This document shows positions 10,924-25,392 of a stretch of DNA of 64,000 bases, piece after piece. How positions within the stretch are numbered: position 1 is the first letter of the stretch; every line of letters begins with the position of its first letter. Under the pieces are notes generated by a model that saw only the letters and a list, made by a program, of their open reading frames with translations, did no database searches and was not told the DNA's origin. The DNA is from an uncultured Clostridia bacterium (GTDB lineage: Bacteria; Bacillota; Clostridia; Christensenellales; CAG-314), in contig CANPXV010000007.1 in the NCBI GenBank assembly GCA_947586855.1, forward strand, positions 1 through 64,000, in the 5' to 3' direction. A program made the translations under genes and the position numbers.

Positions 10924-10958
10924 AACGGCCTGACATCACGTCAAGCCGTTCATTTTTT
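10924..10958. terminator. Terminator between convergent genes
   Basis: AACGGC (10924-10929) pairs with GCCGTT (10945-10950), with inner TGAC/GTCA pairing, then a T6 run. It ends the rightward flavoprotein transcript and may also serve the leftward giant gene ending at 10997. Confidence 0.75.
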
Positions 10959-10996: not shown

Positions 10997-13900
10997 TTAA
11001 CCTACGCCGCCTGTAATTTGTATCTTGTTGACTATATTCAGCATTTCGCTCACGAAGTCCACCAACAGCATATTTTTCCATTCATAGCCGTGTTCTTCGC
11101 TCGGCGAGCCGTGGTGTTCGCTTATCTCTTGCCAGAATTGCTCAGCCGTCAGGCTTTCGGGGCTTGTTGCTTTTTTCATCAAATATGTGGTCAGATTGCA
11201 GTCGTCGTGTTTTTGTCCCTCGGGCAAATCTTCCTCAAATATGATGGCCAGCAGTGCAATATTTTCGGGTTCCAACGTCATCATTCCGCTGTCCATGATG
11301 TCGCCCACGGTCAGATCCTGTGCAATACCCGTCATCTGGCTGCCCGTCAGTTCGTCGATACGCAAGTTGGCGATCTTGCCGTTCAGCCCCTTGGCTATCG
11401 AGCAGGGATATTGGCCACCGCCGCCCGGCGTTCCGTGGGAGTGAGTTTCGTCAGCGTCGTTTCTGTCGTCGCAGTCGTACCACACAAAGCCGTAGCAGCG
11501 GAATGTGTGCTCCTTGTGCTCAACTTTGCCGCAGGTGGAGCCCTTGCCATCCTCGTCCACATCGCCGCAAACATCCGTTTCATGGGTGTGCAGTTCCTTC
11601 TTGCAGGTCAGTTGCGCCTCGTAGTAGACGTTGTTTTTCACATCGTGGTAGTACAGTTTGCCGTCGCCGCTGCCCTGCACCTTCACGATTTCGTCCAGAT
11701 AGCTGCGTTTTTCGTTGGTGTCCTTTGCAACGGTCTCAAACGTTTTGCCCGCCACCTCCTTGGTGACGTCGTTGCGCTCAAAGTTCATGGCTACGCCCAC
11801 ATACACGGCGTCCAGCTCGTCGCTCAGGTCGCCAATCTTGACGTCCTTCAATTCTTTCAGCAGGCCGTTGGCGTTGTCCAGCGTCAGCACGTCGCCCAGC
11901 GGGGTGTCGTTTACGGTGTCGGTGATGGTGTCGCCGTCCATTTCGCTCACTTTCAGCCGAGCAAGCCTGCCGATAAGTTTGTCGGCGGCAACGTAGCAAT
12001 CGTCGGTGTGTTGAACGTGTTCGGGATCGCCCTCGTGCTTGCAATTAAGCGTGTACCAATTGAAGCGGTAGCAGTCCAGACTGTGCGTGTGTTCCTCTTT
12101 GTCGCAGCTACCTAAGCCCTCGCAACTTGCGTCGTGCGTGTGCTCCTCTTTGGTGCAGTACATCGCAGCGTCGTACCAGATTCCGTCGTCGCCCAGCAAT
12201 GCAAAGTGTTCGCTGTCGGCGGTGTTGCGTTTAAGTTTGCCCAACTCGTCCGGGCCCGTCATGTCCGCATAGCCGCTGCTCACGTCCACGGGCTTTTTGA
12301 CGTATTTCAAAAATGCGCCCAGGTACATGTCGTCGATTGCGCCGCCCAGCTCGCCGATAGGCACGTCCGCAAGGGACAGCAGCGATTCGGGCACGTTGTC
12401 GCCCATCACGTCCTGCAACGTAAAGCTCTGGATGGTGTCGTTGAGGTCGCCCAACTCGTCCACCCGTTCATTGGCCAGCTTGCCCATCATGCCGTCGGCC
12501 ACGATGTAATAGTTGTTTTCGTCGTTGTCCTCGGTGGGCAGCCATTCGCCCGCCGCTTTGTGGTGGTCGGCCTCGGTGTGATCGACGATATCGCACACCT
12601 TGTACCACACATAGCCGTAGCAGCTTGCGTCATGGACGTGGTGCTTTTCGTTGGTGCAGTCGGCGCCGTCCACTCCGCAGTTCTCGTCGTGGGGCACTTC
12701 CTTTTTGGTGCAGGTCAGCGCAGCCTCGTACCAGATGTCGCCGCCCTGCTTGATGGCGTTGCCGCTTGTGTCCAGCCGCACTTCGCCATCCGTCACCTTG
12801 CCCGTTTCGTCGGTCAGTTCGGGCAGAGTTGCGCCGCCGACAGTTGCGCCGTAGTTGTTTTCGGTGACGCCCTCGCCGATTTCCGTCACGGTCTTGCGCC
12901 TGTACTCCAAAAAGTCGCCCAGATACATGCCGTTGATGGCGTCATTGAGGTTGCCGATTTTTTCGTCCTTGATACTGCCCAGCATATCGGGCACGTCGTC
13001 GCCCAGCACGTCCGCCAGGGTAAAGTCCTTGATAGTTTCGTCGAGGTCGCCCATGTCGCCCACTTTTTCGCGGGCCAATTTGGACATCATGCCGGTGGTG
13101 GGGATGTAGTGCACCTCCACGCCGTCCTTATCCTCAAATATCCACTCGCTTGTCTTGTCGCACTCGTGATCGCCATCGATTTTTTCGTACCACACAAAGT
13201 CGTAGCAATCCACGCCGTGGACGTGGTGGGTCTCGTCGGTGCAGTTGCCCTCTTCGCCGCCGCAATCGTCGGTGTGATTTTTCTCTTCTTTGTCGCAGAC
13301 GTACACCGCCTCATACCAGGTTTCGCCGTCGTCCTCCGTCTTGGCATAGGCCTTTTCTGCGCCGTCTTGTGTTTCCACAACAACGATTTCGTCCGTCTCA
13401 AACACGACTGTGTAGCCCGATCGATCTTCGGGCACGTCCACGGGCCTGCGCTTGTAGTGGAGGAAGTCTCCCAAGTACACGTTGTCGATAGCGGCGTCCA
13501 TCTCGTTGATGGGGGTATCTTTCAGCGATTCCAGCATTTCGGGCACGTTGTCGCCCATCACGTCTTGCAGAGTAAATTCCTGCACGGTCTCGTTGAGGTT
13601 GCCCATATTGCCCACATGTTCGTTGGCCAGCTTGCCCATCATGCCGTCGGCCACGATGTAATAGTTGTTTTCGTCGTTATCCTCGGTGGGCAGCCAATCG
13701 CCGGCGGCAGCGTGGGCGTCAGCGTCGGTGTGTTCGACGTCCTCGCACACCTTGTACCACACAAAGCCGTAGCAGCTTGCGTCGTGGACGTGGTGCTTTT
13801 CGTTGGTGCAGTCGGCGCCGTCCACTCCGCAGTTCTCGTCGTGGGGCACTTCCTTTTTGGTGCAGGTCAGCGCAGCCTCGTACCACATTTCGCCCGCCTG

Positions 13901-16549
13901 TTTGATGGCGTTGCCATCTTTGTCGATCTTGACCGCACCATCCGACACTTTGCCCTCTTCGTCTGTCAGTTCGGGCAGGGTGACATTGTCAAAGTCCGCC
14001 TCGTCCTTGCCCAGATCTTTCAGCGTTTTGCGGCGATATTCCAGCAGCTCGCCCAGATACATGTTGTCGATAGCTTCGTCCAGCTTGCCGACGGGCGTAT
14101 CTTTCAGACTGCTCAGCATGCCGGGCAGGTCGTCTCCCATAACCTCGCCGAGGGTCAGCTCCTTGGCCTTGTCGTTGAGGTTGCCCAGGTTTTTGACCTG
14201 TTCATCGGCCAGCTTGCCCATCATGTCGTTGTTGCGGACGTAGTATTCTTCCTCGCCCTCAGGCAGCCATTCGCCCTCGTGCGTGTGATCCTCTTGGGTA
14301 TTTTCGCACTTTTCGTACCACCAGAAGCCGTAGCAGCTTGCGTCGTGGACGTGGTGGGTCTCGTCGGTGCAACTTTCGGGGGCGCCGCACTCCTCGGTGT
14401 GGGGCACTTCCTTTTCGATACAGGTCAGGCGCGCCTCGTACCAGATGTCGTCCGCCAGCTTGGCGTATTCCGTCACGGCCTCGTCGCCCTCGCCGACGAG
14501 CTTGCATTTCAGCCCGTCAATTACGTTGCCGTTGATGTCTGTGACGTCCTTGGTGTAGGTAGCCAACTCGCCCTCGGTCAGCGGTCTGCGCTTAAAGGAC
14601 AGCAATTCGCCCAGATACATATCGTTGATGGCGTCGTTCATGTCGCCGATGGGCGTGTCCTTGATACTATCCAGAATATCCGGCACGTCGTCGCCCATCA
14701 CGTCCGCCAAGGTAAACTCCTTCACGGCGTCATCCAGGTTGGACATATCGGCAATTTGCTTGTTGGATAGCTTGGCCATCATGCCTTCCAGCGGCACAAA
14801 GGGCAGTTGTTCGTCGTTGTTGTCCTCGGGCACCCATTCGCCCTCGTGGGTGTGATCGGACTCGGCGTTTTCGCACTGCTCGTACCACACAAAGCCGAAG
14901 CAGCCCGCCACATTGTGGGTGTGCTCTTCCAGACCGCAAATTTCGCCCTTGCCGTCGGGGTCGATAACGCCGCACTCAGCGGTGTGTTGATGTTCTTCCT
15001 TTATGCAGGTAAGCCCGCCCTCGTACCAGGTTTTGCCGTCGGGCGAAAGGCCCAGCACATTGCCTTCGGCGTCCTTTATCAGATATTTGCTCGGTTCTTC
15101 GTCCTCTTCGGGCGTTTCGTTTTTGTATAGCTCTATCACGTTGCCCTCGGGCTGCTCGTCCAGCTTTCTCATGCGGAAGCCCAGCAGTTGGCCGAGATAC
15201 ATGTCGTCTATGCCGCCGTCTATCAGTTCGCCTATGGTCATATCGGACAAATTTTCAAACATACCGCTCATTTCCTGCCCTTCAAGCAGCTCGTTGAGGG
15301 GGATATTCATCATCTTGTCCATCAGGGCGTCACTTTCCGGGTCGGTCATCATGCCGATCGTCACGTCGGCGATGGCGGCGTACAGTCCGGTTGCGGCAGC
15401 GTAGTGCACGCCGTCCAGTACAAGGTCGCCTTCGGCCTCTTCTTCGGCGGCAGTGGTGCTGTACCACACAAAGCCGTAGCAATCGATGGTGTGCACGTGC
15501 TCTTCGTCCTCGTCGGTGCACACAAGTTTGGCCTCGTATCTGTCCGTGCGAGGCTCCTCCTCGCCCTCCTTTTCGACTACCTTCACCAGCGCAAAGTCAT
15601 CGCCGTTTTGCCACAGAGTGTAGTTGTCGTTTTTCAGATCCGTCTCGGTGTAGCCCTCAAATGCGGCCTCGTCCAGCAGATTGCGTTGCAGGTTGACCAG
15701 GTCGCCGAGGTACACGTCGTTTATCATATCGTCGGGGTTCAGGTTGCCCTCTGCGTCGATGAGGTCGGCCAGGGCATTTTCGCCGAATATTGCCGTCAAA
15801 AACGTGCTTGCGTCGCCCAACAGTTCGGTCAGCGGCAGCTTGCCCATTTCGTCAAAGGCGCCTCCCAGCTTAAACTCCAACAGCATATTGCCGTCCATAC
15901 CGCCCAGCAGGGGCCCCAACTTGGCTTGTCCGATGGCCCAGATCAGCGAGTTATCCTCTGTTTTGTCCAGCGGCAGCATGCCCAGCGCCATTTCCGACAG
16001 GCGCACGTCGGCAAACACGGTGGCAATGCCGTCTTCCGCCATCAGGTCGTTCATGCTGAATGCGGACAGCTTTTCCAGCACCGAGTCGGGGAACATTGCA
16101 TTGGCCGAACCGTCCTCGCCTTGCTCTCCGCCGGCAAACATATTCAGCAGGGCGGGTATCACGCTCACCCTGATCTGATTCATCGCCATGTTTCTGTCGC
16201 CGCCGATCAGCTCAAAAATGGGCACATCAAGCACTTCTTGCGGCACAGGCTTGCCCCCAAACAGCTCGCTTGGGTTGATATTATATTTCTCGCAGAACTG
16301 CCCAAAGGTAAAGTACTGCCCGTTCTCGTCCGTGATGCCCACCTTGCTGCGATACAGCTCGCTTACCGATTTGTATATATCCAGCAACGACATGTTGGCC
16401 AAGTCGCCCAGGTACTTTACGCTGTCGTAGGACAGGTCGCTGGGTTTGATAACCGTAGCGGCAATAAGGATGCCTCCGGCGATTGCTCCGATAAAGAAGA
16501 TAATGCCGAAAATCATTCCCAAGAAAAATGCCAATACTCTTCTTCCCAT
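10997..16549 (-). CDS. 1,850-residue membrane-anchored protein with about eight Cys/His-rich repeats
   Basis: Start at 16549, chosen because GAGGT lies 6 nt upstream. One hydrophobic segment (residues ~4-32) follows MGRR and should anchor the protein with the rest outside. After ~280 unique residues come about eight repeats of 170-200 residues. Each has a (D/N)xMYLGxLLxxxRR-like start (codons near 15708, 15197, 14614, 14056, 13471, 12924, 12318, 11795). A Cys/His cluster follows, of the type LTCxKEEHxHTxxCG...EEHxHxxxCYGFVWY. Then comes GMMGKLANEQV...NLNDT, then FTLxDVMGDDVPDML and SLKDTPIGDM. The composition is very acidic. No LPXTG or catalytic motif is seen. H-x-H-x3-C motifs of this kind occur in large surface proteins of gut Firmicutes but have no firm function; metal binding is my inference. 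It lies 4 bp after the GDPD gene. Confidence 0.85.
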   Translation of the reverse strand: MGRRVLAFFLGMIFGIIFFIGAIAGGILIAATVIKPSDLSYDSVKYLGDLANMSLLDIYKSVSELYRSKVGITDENGQYFTFGQFCEKYNINPSELFGGKPVPQEVLDVPIFELIGGDRNMAMNQIRVSVIPALLNMFAGGEQGEDGSANAMFPDSVLEKLSAFSMNDLMAEDGIATVFADVRLSEMALGMLPLDKTEDNSLIWAIGQAKLGPLLGGMDGNMLLEFKLGGAFDEMGKLPLTELLGDASTFLTAIFGENALADLIDAEGNLNPDDMINDVYLGDLVNLQRNLLDEAAFEGYTETDLKNDNYTLWQNGDDFALVKVVEKEGEEEPRTDRYEAKLVCTDEDEEHVHTIDCYGFVWYSTTAAEEEAEGDLVLDGVHYAAATGLYAAIADVTIGMMTDPESDALMDKMMNIPLNELLEGQEMSGMFENLSDMTIGELIDGGIDDMYLGQLLGFRMRKLDEQPEGNVIELYKNETPEEDEEPSKYLIKDAEGNVLGLSPDGKTWYEGGLTCIKEEHQHTAECGVIDPDGKGEICGLEEHTHNVAGCFGFVWYEQCENAESDHTHEGEWVPEDNNDEQLPFVPLEGMMAKLSNKQIADMSNLDDAVKEFTLADVMGDDVPDILDSIKDTPIGDMNDAINDMYLGELLSFKRRPLTEGELATYTKDVTDINGNVIDGLKCKLVGEGDEAVTEYAKLADDIWYEARLTCIEKEVPHTEECGAPESCTDETHHVHDASCYGFWWYEKCENTQEDHTHEGEWLPEGEEEYYVRNNDMMGKLADEQVKNLGNLNDKAKELTLGEVMGDDLPGMLSSLKDTPVGKLDEAIDNMYLGELLEYRRKTLKDLGKDEADFDNVTLPELTDEEGKVSDGAVKIDKDGNAIKQAGEMWYEAALTCTKKEVPHDENCGVDGADCTNEKHHVHDASCYGFVWYKVCEDVEHTDADAHAAAGDWLPTEDNDENNYYIVADGMMGKLANEHVGNMGNLNETVQEFTLQDVMGDNVPEMLESLKDTPINEMDAAIDNVYLGDFLHYKRRPVDVPEDRSGYTVVFETDEIVVVETQDGAEKAYAKTEDDGETWYEAVYVCDKEEKNHTDDCGGEEGNCTDETHHVHGVDCYDFVWYEKIDGDHECDKTSEWIFEDKDGVEVHYIPTTGMMSKLAREKVGDMGDLDETIKDFTLADVLGDDVPDMLGSIKDEKIGNLNDAINGMYLGDFLEYRRKTVTEIGEGVTENNYGATVGGATLPELTDETGKVTDGEVRLDTSGNAIKQGGDIWYEAALTCTKKEVPHDENCGVDGADCTNEKHHVHDASCYGYVWYKVCDIVDHTEADHHKAAGEWLPTEDNDENNYYIVADGMMGKLANERVDELGDLNDTIQSFTLQDVMGDNVPESLLSLADVPIGELGGAIDDMYLGAFLKYVKKPVDVSSGYADMTGPDELGKLKRNTADSEHFALLGDDGIWYDAAMYCTKEEHTHDASCEGLGSCDKEEHTHSLDCYRFNWYTLNCKHEGDPEHVQHTDDCYVAADKLIGRLARLKVSEMDGDTITDTVNDTPLGDVLTLDNANGLLKELKDVKIGDLSDELDAVYVGVAMNFERNDVTKEVAGKTFETVAKDTNEKRSYLDEIVKVQGSGDGKLYYHDVKNNVYYEAQLTCKKELHTHETDVCGDVDEDGKGSTCGKVEHKEHTFRCYGFVWYDCDDRNDADETHSHGTPGGGGQYPCSIAKGLNGKIANLRIDELTGSQMTGIAQDLTVGDIMDSGMMTLEPENIALLAIIFEEDLPEGQKHDDCNLTTYLMKKATSPESLTAEQFWQEISEHHGSPSEEHGYEWKNMLLVDFVSEMLNIVNKIQITGGVG

Positions 16550-16553
16550 AGTG

Positions 16554-17309
16554 TTACCTCTCGATTTGTTGCAGATCTTTGCGCTCGGGCACAAAGGAAT
16601 CGAAAATCATATTGTCAAAGCTGTCGTGCAGCGTGTCGTATTGCTGCTGACTGCGCACCGTCCAGCACAGGATGGGGATTTTTTTTGCGAGGCGCCTCAC
16701 CGCCTTGTTGGTTTGGATGGTGGCGGCGTCGTATGCCACAAATTGAGTGCCGTTCCAGCGGTGCAGCTTCAAGTCTCGCAGTATCCACCGCCTGATTGGC
16801 CCAAACGCCCCCTCAAACGAGCAGGACAGCTGCCCCCGTATCACATCGGGCGCATGCACCTTGAACCAATGCACCACAAACGGGTCAAACGACTCGATGC
16901 AGTAGTGCCCCTTGTAGCCCAGCAGCATATCCCTTGTTTTTTGTTCCACCTCGCCGATATCTTTGTGCGGCTTGATTTCCACCACGATATTGCTGCCGTT
17001 GGCCGCCGCCAAAAACTCCTCAAAGGTGGGGATAACGCAGTCCGTGCCCAACAGCCTCAGCTGACGCAGCTCGGCAAAGGTCTTGTCGCACAGCTTGCCC
17101 TCTGCGCCCGTCATGCGGAGCAGGGTGTCGTCGTGGAAAACCACCAACACGCCGTCCGACGTCATCTGCACGTCCGTTTCTATGCCGAAACTGCTTTGCG
17201 CCGCCCTTTCAAATGCGGGCAGACTGTTTTCGGGCAGGCCGACGTTGTCAAATAGCCCCCTGTGGGCGATGTAGATATCCGTCAGCCACTTGTAATCTTG
17301 CCTTATCAC
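16554..17309 (-). CDS. Glycerophosphodiester phosphodiesterase family protein
   Basis: 251 residues with the GDPD barrel motifs: AHRGLFDN (catalytic His/Arg) and PENSLPAFERA, IETDVQMTSDGVLVVFHDD (Glu, Asp and His of the active site), VVEIKPHKD, and ILCWTVRS near the end. It would cleave glycerophosphodiesters to glycerol-3-phosphate and an alcohol. No signal peptide is seen, so it is cytoplasmic. The start is GTG at 17309, supported by AAGGAG 7 nt upstream; the nearby ATG is out of frame. It is cotranscribed with the giant repeat protein, 4 bp downstream, and preceded by a ~245-nt structured leader. A functional tie to the giant protein is possible but unproven. Confidence 0.88.
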   Translation of the reverse strand: MIRQDYKWLTDIYIAHRGLFDNVGLPENSLPAFERAAQSSFGIETDVQMTSDGVLVVFHDDTLLRMTGAEGKLCDKTFAELRQLRLLGTDCVIPTFEEFLAAANGSNIVVEIKPHKDIGEVEQKTRDMLLGYKGHYCIESFDPFVVHWFKVHAPDVIRGQLSCSFEGAFGPIRRWILRDLKLHRWNGTQFVAYDAATIQTNKAVRRLAKKIPILCWTVRSQQQYDTLHDSFDNMIFDSFVPERKDLQQIER

Positions 17310-17560: not shown

Positions 17561-17589
17561 ATTATATAATGATTTGCTTCAAATTGCAA
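17561..17589 (-). promoter_or_regulatory. Promoter of the GDPD-giant protein operon
   Basis: Leftward TTGCAA (17589-17584), 17-bp spacer, TATAAT (17566-17561). Expected start near 17554 gives a leader of about 245 nt. Confidence 0.7.
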
Positions 17590-22441: not shown

Positions 22442-22470
22442 TTGATTTATTTTATTTCTTCTGCTATAAT
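22442..22470 (+). promoter_or_regulatory. lysR promoter
   Basis: TTGATT (22442-22447), 17-bp spacer, TATAAT (22465-22470), 60 nt before the ATG at 22531. Confidence 0.75.
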
Positions 22471-22530
22471 TGCATAGTCAAAACTTTGTTCAAACGCCTT
22501 TGAGCAAAATTTTTCTAAGTGGGTGGGCAA

Positions 22531-23406
22531 ATGAAACTTCTGCAAATGAGATATTTCCAGACGGTCTGCCGATATGGCAGCATAACCAAGGCGGCCGAGG
22601 AGCTGTATGTCAGCCAGCCCACAATTTCCTTTTGCCTCAAAGAGTTGGAGGACGAGTTCGGCGTCAAGTTGTTCCATCGCAGGCACAATCGATTGCAGCT
22701 GACGGTGGAGGGGCAATTTTTCTATGACAAGGTCAACTACATTTTGCAGTCGGTGGATTCTCTCGTCACGCAGATGAAGGACATGGGCAACAACCACAAC
22801 CACGTCAAGATAGCCGTGCCCGCCATGATCAGCACGTTTCTGTTTCCGCAGATGTTCAACGCCTACACCAAGCTCTACCCCGATGTGGAGTTGGAGATGT
22901 TGGAGACGGGCTCGTTGCAGGCCCGCAAGCTGGTGGACGCCAATTCGGTGGATCTGGGCATCACGATACTTGACAATTTTGTCAACGACGCCTACAATGT
23001 GTTGCCGTTGTGCTCTACGGAGTTGGTTTTTTGCGTCAGCAAGCGGCATCATCTTGCGCAAAAAAAGCGCATTTCCTTCAAGGAGTTGCAGGACGAGCAC
23101 ATCATCCTGTTCAAGGCGGATAGCTACCAAAACATCTTTATCAAGAGAGCCTTTTCGGAGGTGGGCATCGAGCCGAAGATCCTGCTGTATTCCTCTCAGC
23201 TGTACACGGTCAAGCAATTTCTCGGATACGGCAATGCGGGAGCGTTTTTGTATCGGCAGGTGGCCGAGATGGACGATGAATTGGTGTGCATACCGCTGGA
23301 TCAGGCGATTTTTCAGGAGATCGTGCTCATCTGGGGCAAAAGCGGCGTGCTCTACTCCGATTCGGAAAACTTTATACAATTTGCCAAGCAGTATCACTGC
23401 CACTGA
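22531..23406 (+). CDS. LysR-family transcriptional regulator
   Basis: 291 residues. The N-terminal winged helix-turn-helix is typical (MRYFQTVCRYGSITKAAEEL, YVSQPTISFCLKELEDEFGV, KLFHRR). A periplasmic-binding-protein-like effector domain follows from about residue 90. The ATG at 22531 is preferred because GGTGGG precedes it; a GTG at 22519 has no such site. LysR proteins usually act on a neighbouring or divergent target. Here the next genes are a pyrophosphatase and a K+ transporter in the same direction, so the target is unclear. It has its own promoter. Confidence 0.9.
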   Translation: MKLLQMRYFQTVCRYGSITKAAEELYVSQPTISFCLKELEDEFGVKLFHRRHNRLQLTVEGQFFYDKVNYILQSVDSLVTQMKDMGNNHNHVKIAVPAMISTFLFPQMFNAYTKLYPDVELEMLETGSLQARKLVDANSVDLGITILDNFVNDAYNVLPLCSTELVFCVSKRHHLAQKKRISFKELQDEHIILFKADSYQNIFIKRAFSEVGIEPKILLYSSQLYTVKQFLGYGNAGAFLYRQVAEMDDELVCIPLDQAIFQEIVLIWGKSGVLYSDSENFIQFAKQYHCH

Positions 23407-23439
23407 CACGGTGCGCACGTGATCTAACAGGAGGACAAT

Positions 23440-23976
23440 ATGAACATTTGGCACGATATTTCGCGCGACAGGATCAGCTGTTCGGATTTTTATGCGGTGA
23501 TCGAGATAACCAAGGGCAGCAAGATGAAGTACGAGCTGGACAAGGAAACAGGCTTGCTTGTTTTGGACAGGATATTGTACACATCCACCCACTATCCCGC
23601 CAACTACGGGTTCATCCCCCGCACCCTTGCGGAGGACGGCGACCCCATGGATGTGTTGGTGTTGTGTTCGGAGCCGCTTTTGGCGCACAGTCTGGTGCGC
23701 TGCTACCCGATAGGCGTCATCATCATGAACGACAACGGCTCCTGCGATGAAAAGGTCATCGCAATCCCCTTTACCGACCCCAACTACAATTGCTACAAGT
23801 CCATCAAGGATCTGCCCCGGCACATCTTTGACGAAATGCAGCACTTTTTCCGCGTGTACAAGGAGTTGGAAAACAAGCCCACGTCCGTATCGGAGGTGCA
23901 CGACGCCGAAGACGCCCAGCGCATAGTGGAAAAGTCCATCAAGGAGTACATCGACAAGATCCGCTCTCGCATGTGA
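23440..23976 (+). CDS. ppa: Family I inorganic pyrophosphatase
   Basis: 178 residues, full length. The signature DxDPxD metal site is [11 protein letters not shown]. Upstream are KYELDKETG and [11 protein letters not shown], as in soluble Mg-dependent pyrophosphatases. It hydrolyses PPi to two phosphates in the cytoplasm, driving biosynthetic reactions. GGAGG lies 6 nt before the start, 33 bp after lysR. Many Firmicutes use family II enzymes instead, so a family I enzyme is a mild lineage marker. Confidence 0.95.
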
Positions 23977-24063
23977 CGCTTTGCCGCACGGGCGATTTGC
24001 TCCGACGGCTCCATTGCAAAGCAGAGGCGCAAACAACCGGTCTCTGCGCAAAAAGAGGTTTGT

Positions 24064-25392
24064 ATGGTACGAAAACGGTTTCATCTCAATCCGTTTCAGC
24101 TGATAATAATAGGCTTTTTGGCGTTGATATTGCTGGGCACGCTGTTGTTGCTGTTGCCCATTTCCGCCAAAAGCCGCACTGTGACGCCCTTCAATCAGTG
24201 CCTGTTTACGTCCGTTTCGGCGGTGTGCGTTACGGGTCTGGTGGTGGTGGATACCGCCACACATTGGTCGGTGTTCGGTCAGGTGGTCATTTTGCTGCTC
24301 ATTCAGATAGGCGGCCTGGGCGTCATCACGTCCATGGCGGCGCTGATATTGCTGTTTGGCGGCAAAATCACGCTGTTTCAAAAAACCGCCATGCAAGAGG
24401 CTAACTCCGTGCAAAAGATGGGCGGTATCGTGCGCTTTACCGTGTTCATTTTGCTGGCGACGGTCGTCACCGAGCTGGTGGGCACAATTGCGCTCATTCC
24501 CCCATTTGTGATAGCCTTTGGCGGGCGGGGCGTCTGGTTGGCGCTGTTCCATGCCGTTTCGGCCTTTTGCAATGCCGGATTTGACATCATGGGCTCACAG
24601 GGCGCCCAATTTGTGTCCCTCACGGGCTTTGTGGGCAGCCCCACCGTCAATCTCACCGTCATGCTGCTGATATTTATCGGCGGTATCGGGTTTATCACCA
24701 TCTACGACATCGGCGTCAACAAATGCCGTTTTTCCCATTATTCGTTGCAGACCAAGACGGTGCTTATCACTTCGGCAGTGCTTACGTTGGTGCCTGCGGT
24801 GTATTTCTTCTTTGCCGAGTTTGGCGATATGCCCATCAAGGAGCGCATTTTTGCATCGCTGTTTCAGGCGGTCACGCCCCGCACGGCCGGCTTCAACACC
24901 GTAGATTACAACAATATGAGCGGCTTCGGCAGGGGGCTGACAGTGGTGCTGATGCTCATCGGTGGTTCGCCCGGCTCCACGGCAGGCGGCATGAAAACAA
25001 CCACCTTTGCGCTTTTGTTTGCCGCAGCCATATCCACCTTCCGCAAAAAGAACGACACTCTCATCCTGCACCGCCGTGTAGACGACAACACTGTCAAGAC
25101 GGCCTCGGCGCTGTCGCTGATGTATCTGGTGCTGTTTTTGCTGGGCGGCGGCGTCATCAGTCTGGCGGAGGGCTTGCCATTTGACGTGTGTCTGTTCGAG
25201 ACGGCCTCGGCCATCGGCACGGTAGGCCTCACCACGGGTATCACGCCGAGTTTGGGTATAGCCTCGCAAATAATACTTATGCTACTTATGTTTGTGGGCA
25301 GAGTAGGCGGCTTGACGCTGCTGTATGCGGCGCTGTCCAATTCCAACAAAAACATATCCAAGTTGCCGCAGGGAAAAATTTCGGTAGGCTAA
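24064..25392 (+). CDS. trkH: TrkH/KtrB-type potassium transporter subunit
   Basis: 442 residues, about ten hydrophobic segments, with the repeated pore-loop pattern of the Trk/Ktr family: SVSAVCVTGLVVVDT, FHAVSAFCNAGFDIMG, LFQAVTPRTAGFNTVD and FETASAIGTVGLTTG. It conducts K+ (with Na+ or H+ coupling) and needs an RCK subunit, which is encoded 10 bp downstream. AGAGG precedes the ATG. K+ channels of this class are inhibited by c-di-AMP through the RCK partner, linking this pair to cdaA at 4.5 kb. Confidence 0.95.
   Translation: MVRKRFHLNPFQLIIIGFLALILLGTLLLLLPISAKSRTVTPFNQCLFTSVSAVCVTGLVVVDTATHWSVFGQVVILLLIQIGGLGVITSMAALILLFGGKITLFQKTAMQEANSVQKMGGIVRFTVFILLATVVTELVGTIALIPPFVIAFGGRGVWLALFHAVSAFCNAGFDIMGSQGAQFVSLTGFVGSPTVNLTVMLLIFIGGIGFITIYDIGVNKCRFSHYSLQTKTVLITSAVLTLVPAVYFFFAEFGDMPIKERIFASLFQAVTPRTAGFNTVDYNNMSGFGRGLTVVLMLIGGSPGSTAGGMKTTTFALLFAAAISTFRKKNDTLILHRRVDDNTVKTASALSLMYLVLFLLGGGVISLAEGLPFDVCLFETASAIGTVGLTTGITPSLGIASQIILMLLMFVGRVGGLTLLYAALSNSNKNISKLPQGKISVG

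Follow-up and report, generated by a model that had tools for sequence, protein, structure and literature searches.

Exported proteins of anaerobic Firmicutes are believed to be kept largely free of cysteine, and the streptococcal histidine-triad (Pht) proteins, which are found at the cell surface, carry repeated metal-binding histidine motifs of the form HxxHxH without cysteine. Zinc sites built on cysteine motifs have a measured Gram-positive precedent in the Lactococcus membrane proteins Llmg_0524 and Llmg_0526, where they are thought to be stabilising (PMC4628341). The repeat protein described here, likewise a predicted membrane protein, is encoded on the − strand at 10997–16549 of the window, the 64,000-nucleotide stretch that we analysed. 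Its open frame of 1,850 amino acids, N-terminally anchored and backed by syntenic orthologs, starts with an ATG at 16549 and its stop codon ends at 10997, exactly the extent given in the preliminary description. A GDPD phosphodiesterase gene (16554–17309, − strand; PF03009, E 3e-26), in an order that is conserved, ends 4 nt before this start codon, and the close spacing makes it likely that the two genes lie on the same transcript. A promoter-like site upstream of the GDPD gene (17561–17589, − strand) and a terminator-like hairpin of 12 pairs 3′ of the repeat-protein gene (10924–10950, − strand) are consensus matches only, the former not above shuffle expectation. The long open frames on the + strand opposite the gene were set aside as antisense frames, as relatives conserve the − strand frame as protein; the one at 12134–14770, of 878 amino acids, is put down to codon composition. 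Elsewhere in the window, a 701-residue open frame beside HemN (22447–24552, − strand) has no Pfam match, recurs at about 38–57% identity in most of the relatives whose sequence reaches this far, and overlaps a TrkH frame on the + strand (24064–25392).

The protein opens with a predicted transmembrane signal anchor (residues 4–36, 16442–16540; this and all following features of the protein lie on the − strand), which AlphaFold2 (AF2) models as a helix over residues 2–32. Its GxxxG motif is formed by two glycines, G11 and G15, that are invariant in 23 relatives, which suggests helix packing. A helical N-terminal domain follows (residues 37–276, 15722–16441), mostly modelled at pLDDT 80–90 and also conserved in 23 relatives. 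At the other end, the C-terminal domain (11000–11374) shows no sorting signal: the C terminus, NIVNKIQITGGVG, lacks an LPXTG-type motif and the organism's own genome has no match to sortase PF04203, and LPXTG/sortase anchoring was rejected on these grounds. With MGRR before the transmembrane helix, no basic cluster after it and a strongly acidic body, the positive-inside rule predicts that the chain lies outside the cell. The part outside the membrane has a pI of about 4.2 and a net charge of about −246. The earlier picture of an acidic, membrane-anchored protein without a cell-wall sorting signal therefore stands, the single-pass anchor being a predicted one.

Between these ends, an iterated profile finds eight core repeats of about 64 amino acids each, in agreement with the roughly eight units counted beforehand, and seven of the eight cores were matched in a genome profile search with E values from 1e-29 to 2.5e-11. 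The core consensus is GMMGKLANE..VxNLGNLN-TVQxFTLxDVMGDxVPxMLxSLKDTPIGxLxxAIDxMYLGxLLxY, and the two conserved helical blocks noticed previously are real and prove to be opposite ends of a single core. Each core is preceded by a Cys/His linker with the hairpin pattern WYEAxLxC...CYGFVWY. Structure prediction of the repeats, proposed in the preliminary description, was carried out on a segment of three cores with the two linkers between them (alignment of 52 rows; mean pLDDT 80.7, pTM 0.63), and it renders the cores as short helices and the linkers as beta strands; a second model of the N-terminal 480 residues (pLDDT 80.8, pTM 0.57) contains the transmembrane helix, the first linker and, between them, the helical domain. 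Metals are not part of AF2 models, and at pTM values of 0.57–0.63 the stacking of the repeats is uncertain. Pairwise amino acid identity between units ranges from 27 to 74%, the upper value being that of units 4 (13487–14068) and 6 (12335–12934). At the DNA level these two show 87% identity over 450 bp, a mark of recent duplication or gene conversion within the array. As had been stated before, there is no known domain: searches of the whole protein against Pfam, NCBIfam and PDB sequences gave no family match, those to UBA_Rad5, DUF4930 and DUF3042 being sub-threshold noise. Neither the core profile nor the knuckle profile found a credible match in the PDB, and Foldseek (PDB and BFVD) and VIA-align comparisons of the predicted repeat and N-terminal domain returned nothing credible (best E 1.0 and 0.65; Z at most 3.4). 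No carbohydrate or adhesion domain and no binding partner was found for the protein. A phage origin was considered and rejected, with no match among 50,697 phage records.

The linkers hold 15 Cys/His knuckles, one single and seven double modules. Unit 1 (residues 277–447, 15209–15721) carries the single knuckle. In units 2 (residues 448–641, 14627–15208), 7 (1406–1604, 11738–12334) and 8 (1605 to about 1725, 11375–11737, end approximate), the histidines of the double module are divided 2+2, the second knuckle of unit 8 having HxxH spacing. In units 3 (642–827, 14069–14626), 4 (828–1021), 5 (1022–1205, 12935–13486) and 6 (1206–1405), the first knuckle keeps one histidine and its partner has three. 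Ten of the 15 match C-x(3-7)-HxH-x(2-5)-C, whereas 5,000 shuffles of the protein gave a mean of 0.015 matches and a maximum of 2. From the N terminus these are CTDEDEEHVHTIDC (residues 344–357, 15479–15520), CIKEEHQHTAEC (515–526, 14972–15007), CGLEEHTHNVAGC (538–550, 14900–14938), CTDETHHVHDASC (727–739, 14333–14371), CTNEKHHVHDASC (914–926, 13772–13810), CTDETHHVHGVDC (1103–1115, 13205–13243), a second occurrence of CTNEKHHVHDASC (1298–1310, 12620–12658), CTKEEHTHDASC (1465–1476, 12122–12157), CDKEEHTHSLDC (1482–1493, 12071–12106) and CKKELHTHETDVC (1649–1661, 11567–11605). Further stretches of cysteine and histidine occur besides the 15. The expectation of two clusters per unit and up to about 16 sites was thus nearly right in number, although the clusters are not all of one kind.

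The case for metal sites comes from the way in which cysteine and histidine vary together. Among 143 inter-core linkers from the repeat protein and its relatives, 35 have no cysteine, 1 has a single cysteine and 107 have two or more, so that loss is nearly all-or-none. An HxH motif is present in 96 of the 107 linkers with at least two cysteines and in none of the 35 Cys-free ones, which have a median length of 17 amino acids and only 0.6% histidine; overall, histidine accounts for 12.7% of residues within the C..C spans, as against 2.3% elsewhere. Every one of the 24 distinct double modules, which were chosen irrespective of their histidine content, contains exactly four histidines: 20 divide them 2+2, three (belonging to the paralogous units 3–6 described above) 1+3, and one, in another species, 3+1. 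This constancy was reached by none of 10,000 permutations, in which the rows are not independent; since the four 1+3 units are paralogs, only about two independent compensations are represented. Five single modules read C-x4-C-x-H-x4-C in place of C-x4-HxH-x3-C, which is a swap of the first histidine for cysteine at a putative ligand position. The host genome, which is 93% complete, has no match to VKOR or DsbB, the two disulfide-forming enzymes for which it was searched. Taken together, the constant ligand count, the His/Cys swaps, the confinement of histidine to Cys-bearing loops and the lack of VKOR/DsbB matches strongly support, at the level of sequence, the metal sites claimed at the outset: we read the pattern as selection on two cysteines and two histidines per site, and the knuckles very probably bind metal, with zinc probably the likeliest.

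The knuckle is not confined to this protein. Following another proposal of the preliminary description, a knuckle profile was searched beyond the host and matched proteins not only from several families of the order but also from other families of the class. Seventeen of these proteins, all from the order, were read; they are of giant size, probably surface-exposed, carry as many as 22 knuckles and in some cases CHAP or List_Bact_rpt domains, and 121 of their 122 His-bearing knuckles have exactly two histidines. At six loci the CHxHC knuckles stand in consecutive order, up to 22 in a row, and in most cases lie close to a hydrophobic N-terminal segment. Neither Pfam nor NCBIfam has a model for the knuckle arrays of the giant proteins, and a literature search with CHxHC motif strings found no paper that prints them; as judged from these searches, the CHxHC knuckle is an uncatalogued motif found across the class.

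The helical core has a different distribution. Orthologs of the repeat protein occur in the same genus and in several sister genera (the genomes used are metagenome-assembled genomes, MAGs), nearly always in the order LepA, GDPD, repeat gene and a gene for an FAD-dependent protein. Their lengths run from about 800 to 1,870 amino acids with variable repeat number, several partial ones being cut by contig ends. Identity in most congeners is 30–54%, beside 86–94% for LepA and 59–78% for GDPD. In two congeners the GDPD and FAD genes lie less than 0.3 kb apart with no gene between them, a clean loss, and in a third genome an AAA_14/DUF4143 ATPase gene occupies the locus (L041, 3937–5223). A collection scan with a narrower alignment gave matches in rabbit-gut MAGs ('Lapin' isolates) and HAN Clostridiales MAGs. 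More widely, 297 genomes of the order were searched with the core profile and 70 gave a match, while within a class-level sample every match fell in a member of that order. Twelve distant core-repeat relatives have a transmembrane anchor wherever the N terminus is covered, and none of the 12 contains CHxHC knuckles, which makes the knuckles a later addition to an older repeat protein. Six distant relatives, from other families of the order, have a CvpA-family gene (PF02674) immediately before the core-repeat gene.

This history bears on what the knuckles are for. With about 15 candidate sites on an acidic chain, and HxH motifs being common in metal-handling proteins, the repeat protein could be an extracellular zinc store, one of the readings offered in the preliminary description, or a scavenging chain that buffers metal at the surface and hands it over to an importer. 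We consider this quite improbable, because across the order the array of core repeats occurs in knuckle-free form, as in the 12 relatives, and Cys-free linkers are common (35 of 143); moreover, no transporter gene adjoins the repeat-protein gene among the neighbours at its own locus or at the relatives' loci, the gene is lost in some congeners, and sites of two cysteines and two histidines are usually tight structural ones. A structural rather than a storage role of the metal sites is accordingly likely. The cysteines could instead form cross-strand disulfides at the ends of the hairpins, the histidines then being incidental or engaged with ligands or protons; the cysteines do sit at facing positions flanking the turn, in a chain that is probably extracellular. 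Such a reading, however, does not explain why histidine totals are compensated, why cysteine can replace histidine or why the two residues are gained and lost together, and with no VKOR/DsbB match and a likely anaerobic gut habitat we regard it as very improbable.

The remaining alternative concerns the location of the protein, which could be a wall-spanning partner of a CvpA-type membrane complex, with a role internal to the envelope and no adhesive function. Its support is that the core-repeat gene comes straight after a CvpA-family gene in no fewer than two other families of the order, the invariant GxxxG motif would suit packing against another helix, and CvpA is required for resistance to the bile salt deoxycholate in EHEC and Vibrio (PMC6705877). 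In this genus, however, the repeat gene follows GDPD, the single CvpA match of the genome is on another contig, some congeners have no repeat gene at all, and rapid divergence fits an exposed surface better. We treat the CvpA connection as a lead and an envelope-internal role as unlikely. A scaffold or adhesin role is plausible and the best of these options: with a probability of roughly 0.55, the repeat protein is a cell-surface stalk or scaffold, probably an adhesin.

As such a stalk, the protein would be held in the membrane by its N-terminal helix, with the chain outside, and the N-terminal domain and the eight predicted helical cores would stack into a long arm. Between cores, the WYEAxLxC...CYGFVWY beta hairpin would protrude, its tip folding round one or two metal ions, probably Zn2+, with two cysteines and two histidines per site. 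The two sites of a double module may act as one 4-Cys/4-His cluster, so that a histidine lost from one knuckle could be supplied by the other; the compensation is seen in the sequences, and the shared chemistry is the step we infer from it. Metal would thereby pin the hairpins that lie exposed on an organism in which neither VKOR nor DsbB was detected, while variable repeat number and fast divergence may tune the reach and the binding surface of the arm. In a broader reading, to which we give even odds, giant surface proteins of gut Clostridia widely carry the CHxHC hairpin as an extracellular zinc module that has so far gone unrecognised; it substitutes for disulfides, has a binuclear 4-Cys/4-His double form with interchangeable ligands, and in the repeat protein has been grafted onto the loops of a helical solenoid that is specific to the order and has no matched fold. 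If true, this would point to a general metal-stapling route to extracellular folding without disulfides, in which ligand number is kept by compensation, and it would link the way in which gut commensals display their surface proteins to how much zinc is available and to its withholding by the host. As Pfam-A, NCBIfam and the PDB hold no match to either, the knuckle and the helical repeat could both be named and tested.

Compared with known systems, the repeat protein combines features of two groups. With the giant Clostridia proteins that carry CHxHC arrays it shares the tandem C-x(4-8)-HxH-x3-C-[YF] knuckle, with ten complete copies of the same spacing, in a long chain with a hydrophobic N-terminal segment, mostly close to the knuckles in the giants. 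Most of those proteins, however, lack the helical core and hold their knuckles in one N-terminal or linker array, and some have CHAP or List_Bact_rpt Pfam matches that the repeat protein does not. With the order-wide core-repeat proteins it shares tandem TL-x-DVxG ... IGxL ... YLGxLL helical cores and an N-terminal transmembrane segment with a GxxxG-like motif, a similarity judged by eye in distant members; the 12 examined differ in having no CHxHC and few cysteines, and the order-wide proteins often adjoin CvpA. The lactococcal Llmg_0524 and Llmg_0526 are, by contrast, small proteins without repeats, with CX2CX10CX2C sites (PMC4628341). Unlike the Pht proteins, the repeat protein has its histidines in Cys-flanked knuckles and no Pfam match to such families, and its C-x(3-7)-HxH-x(2-5)-C spacing is distinct from the retroviral CCHC knuckle, C-x2-C-x4-H-x4-C, to which it likewise has no Pfam or PDB match. 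Judged from its sequence and its relatives, it is a real, uncharacterised protein of the modular surface type, and the kind to which it belongs, the giant modular surface protein, is a known one.
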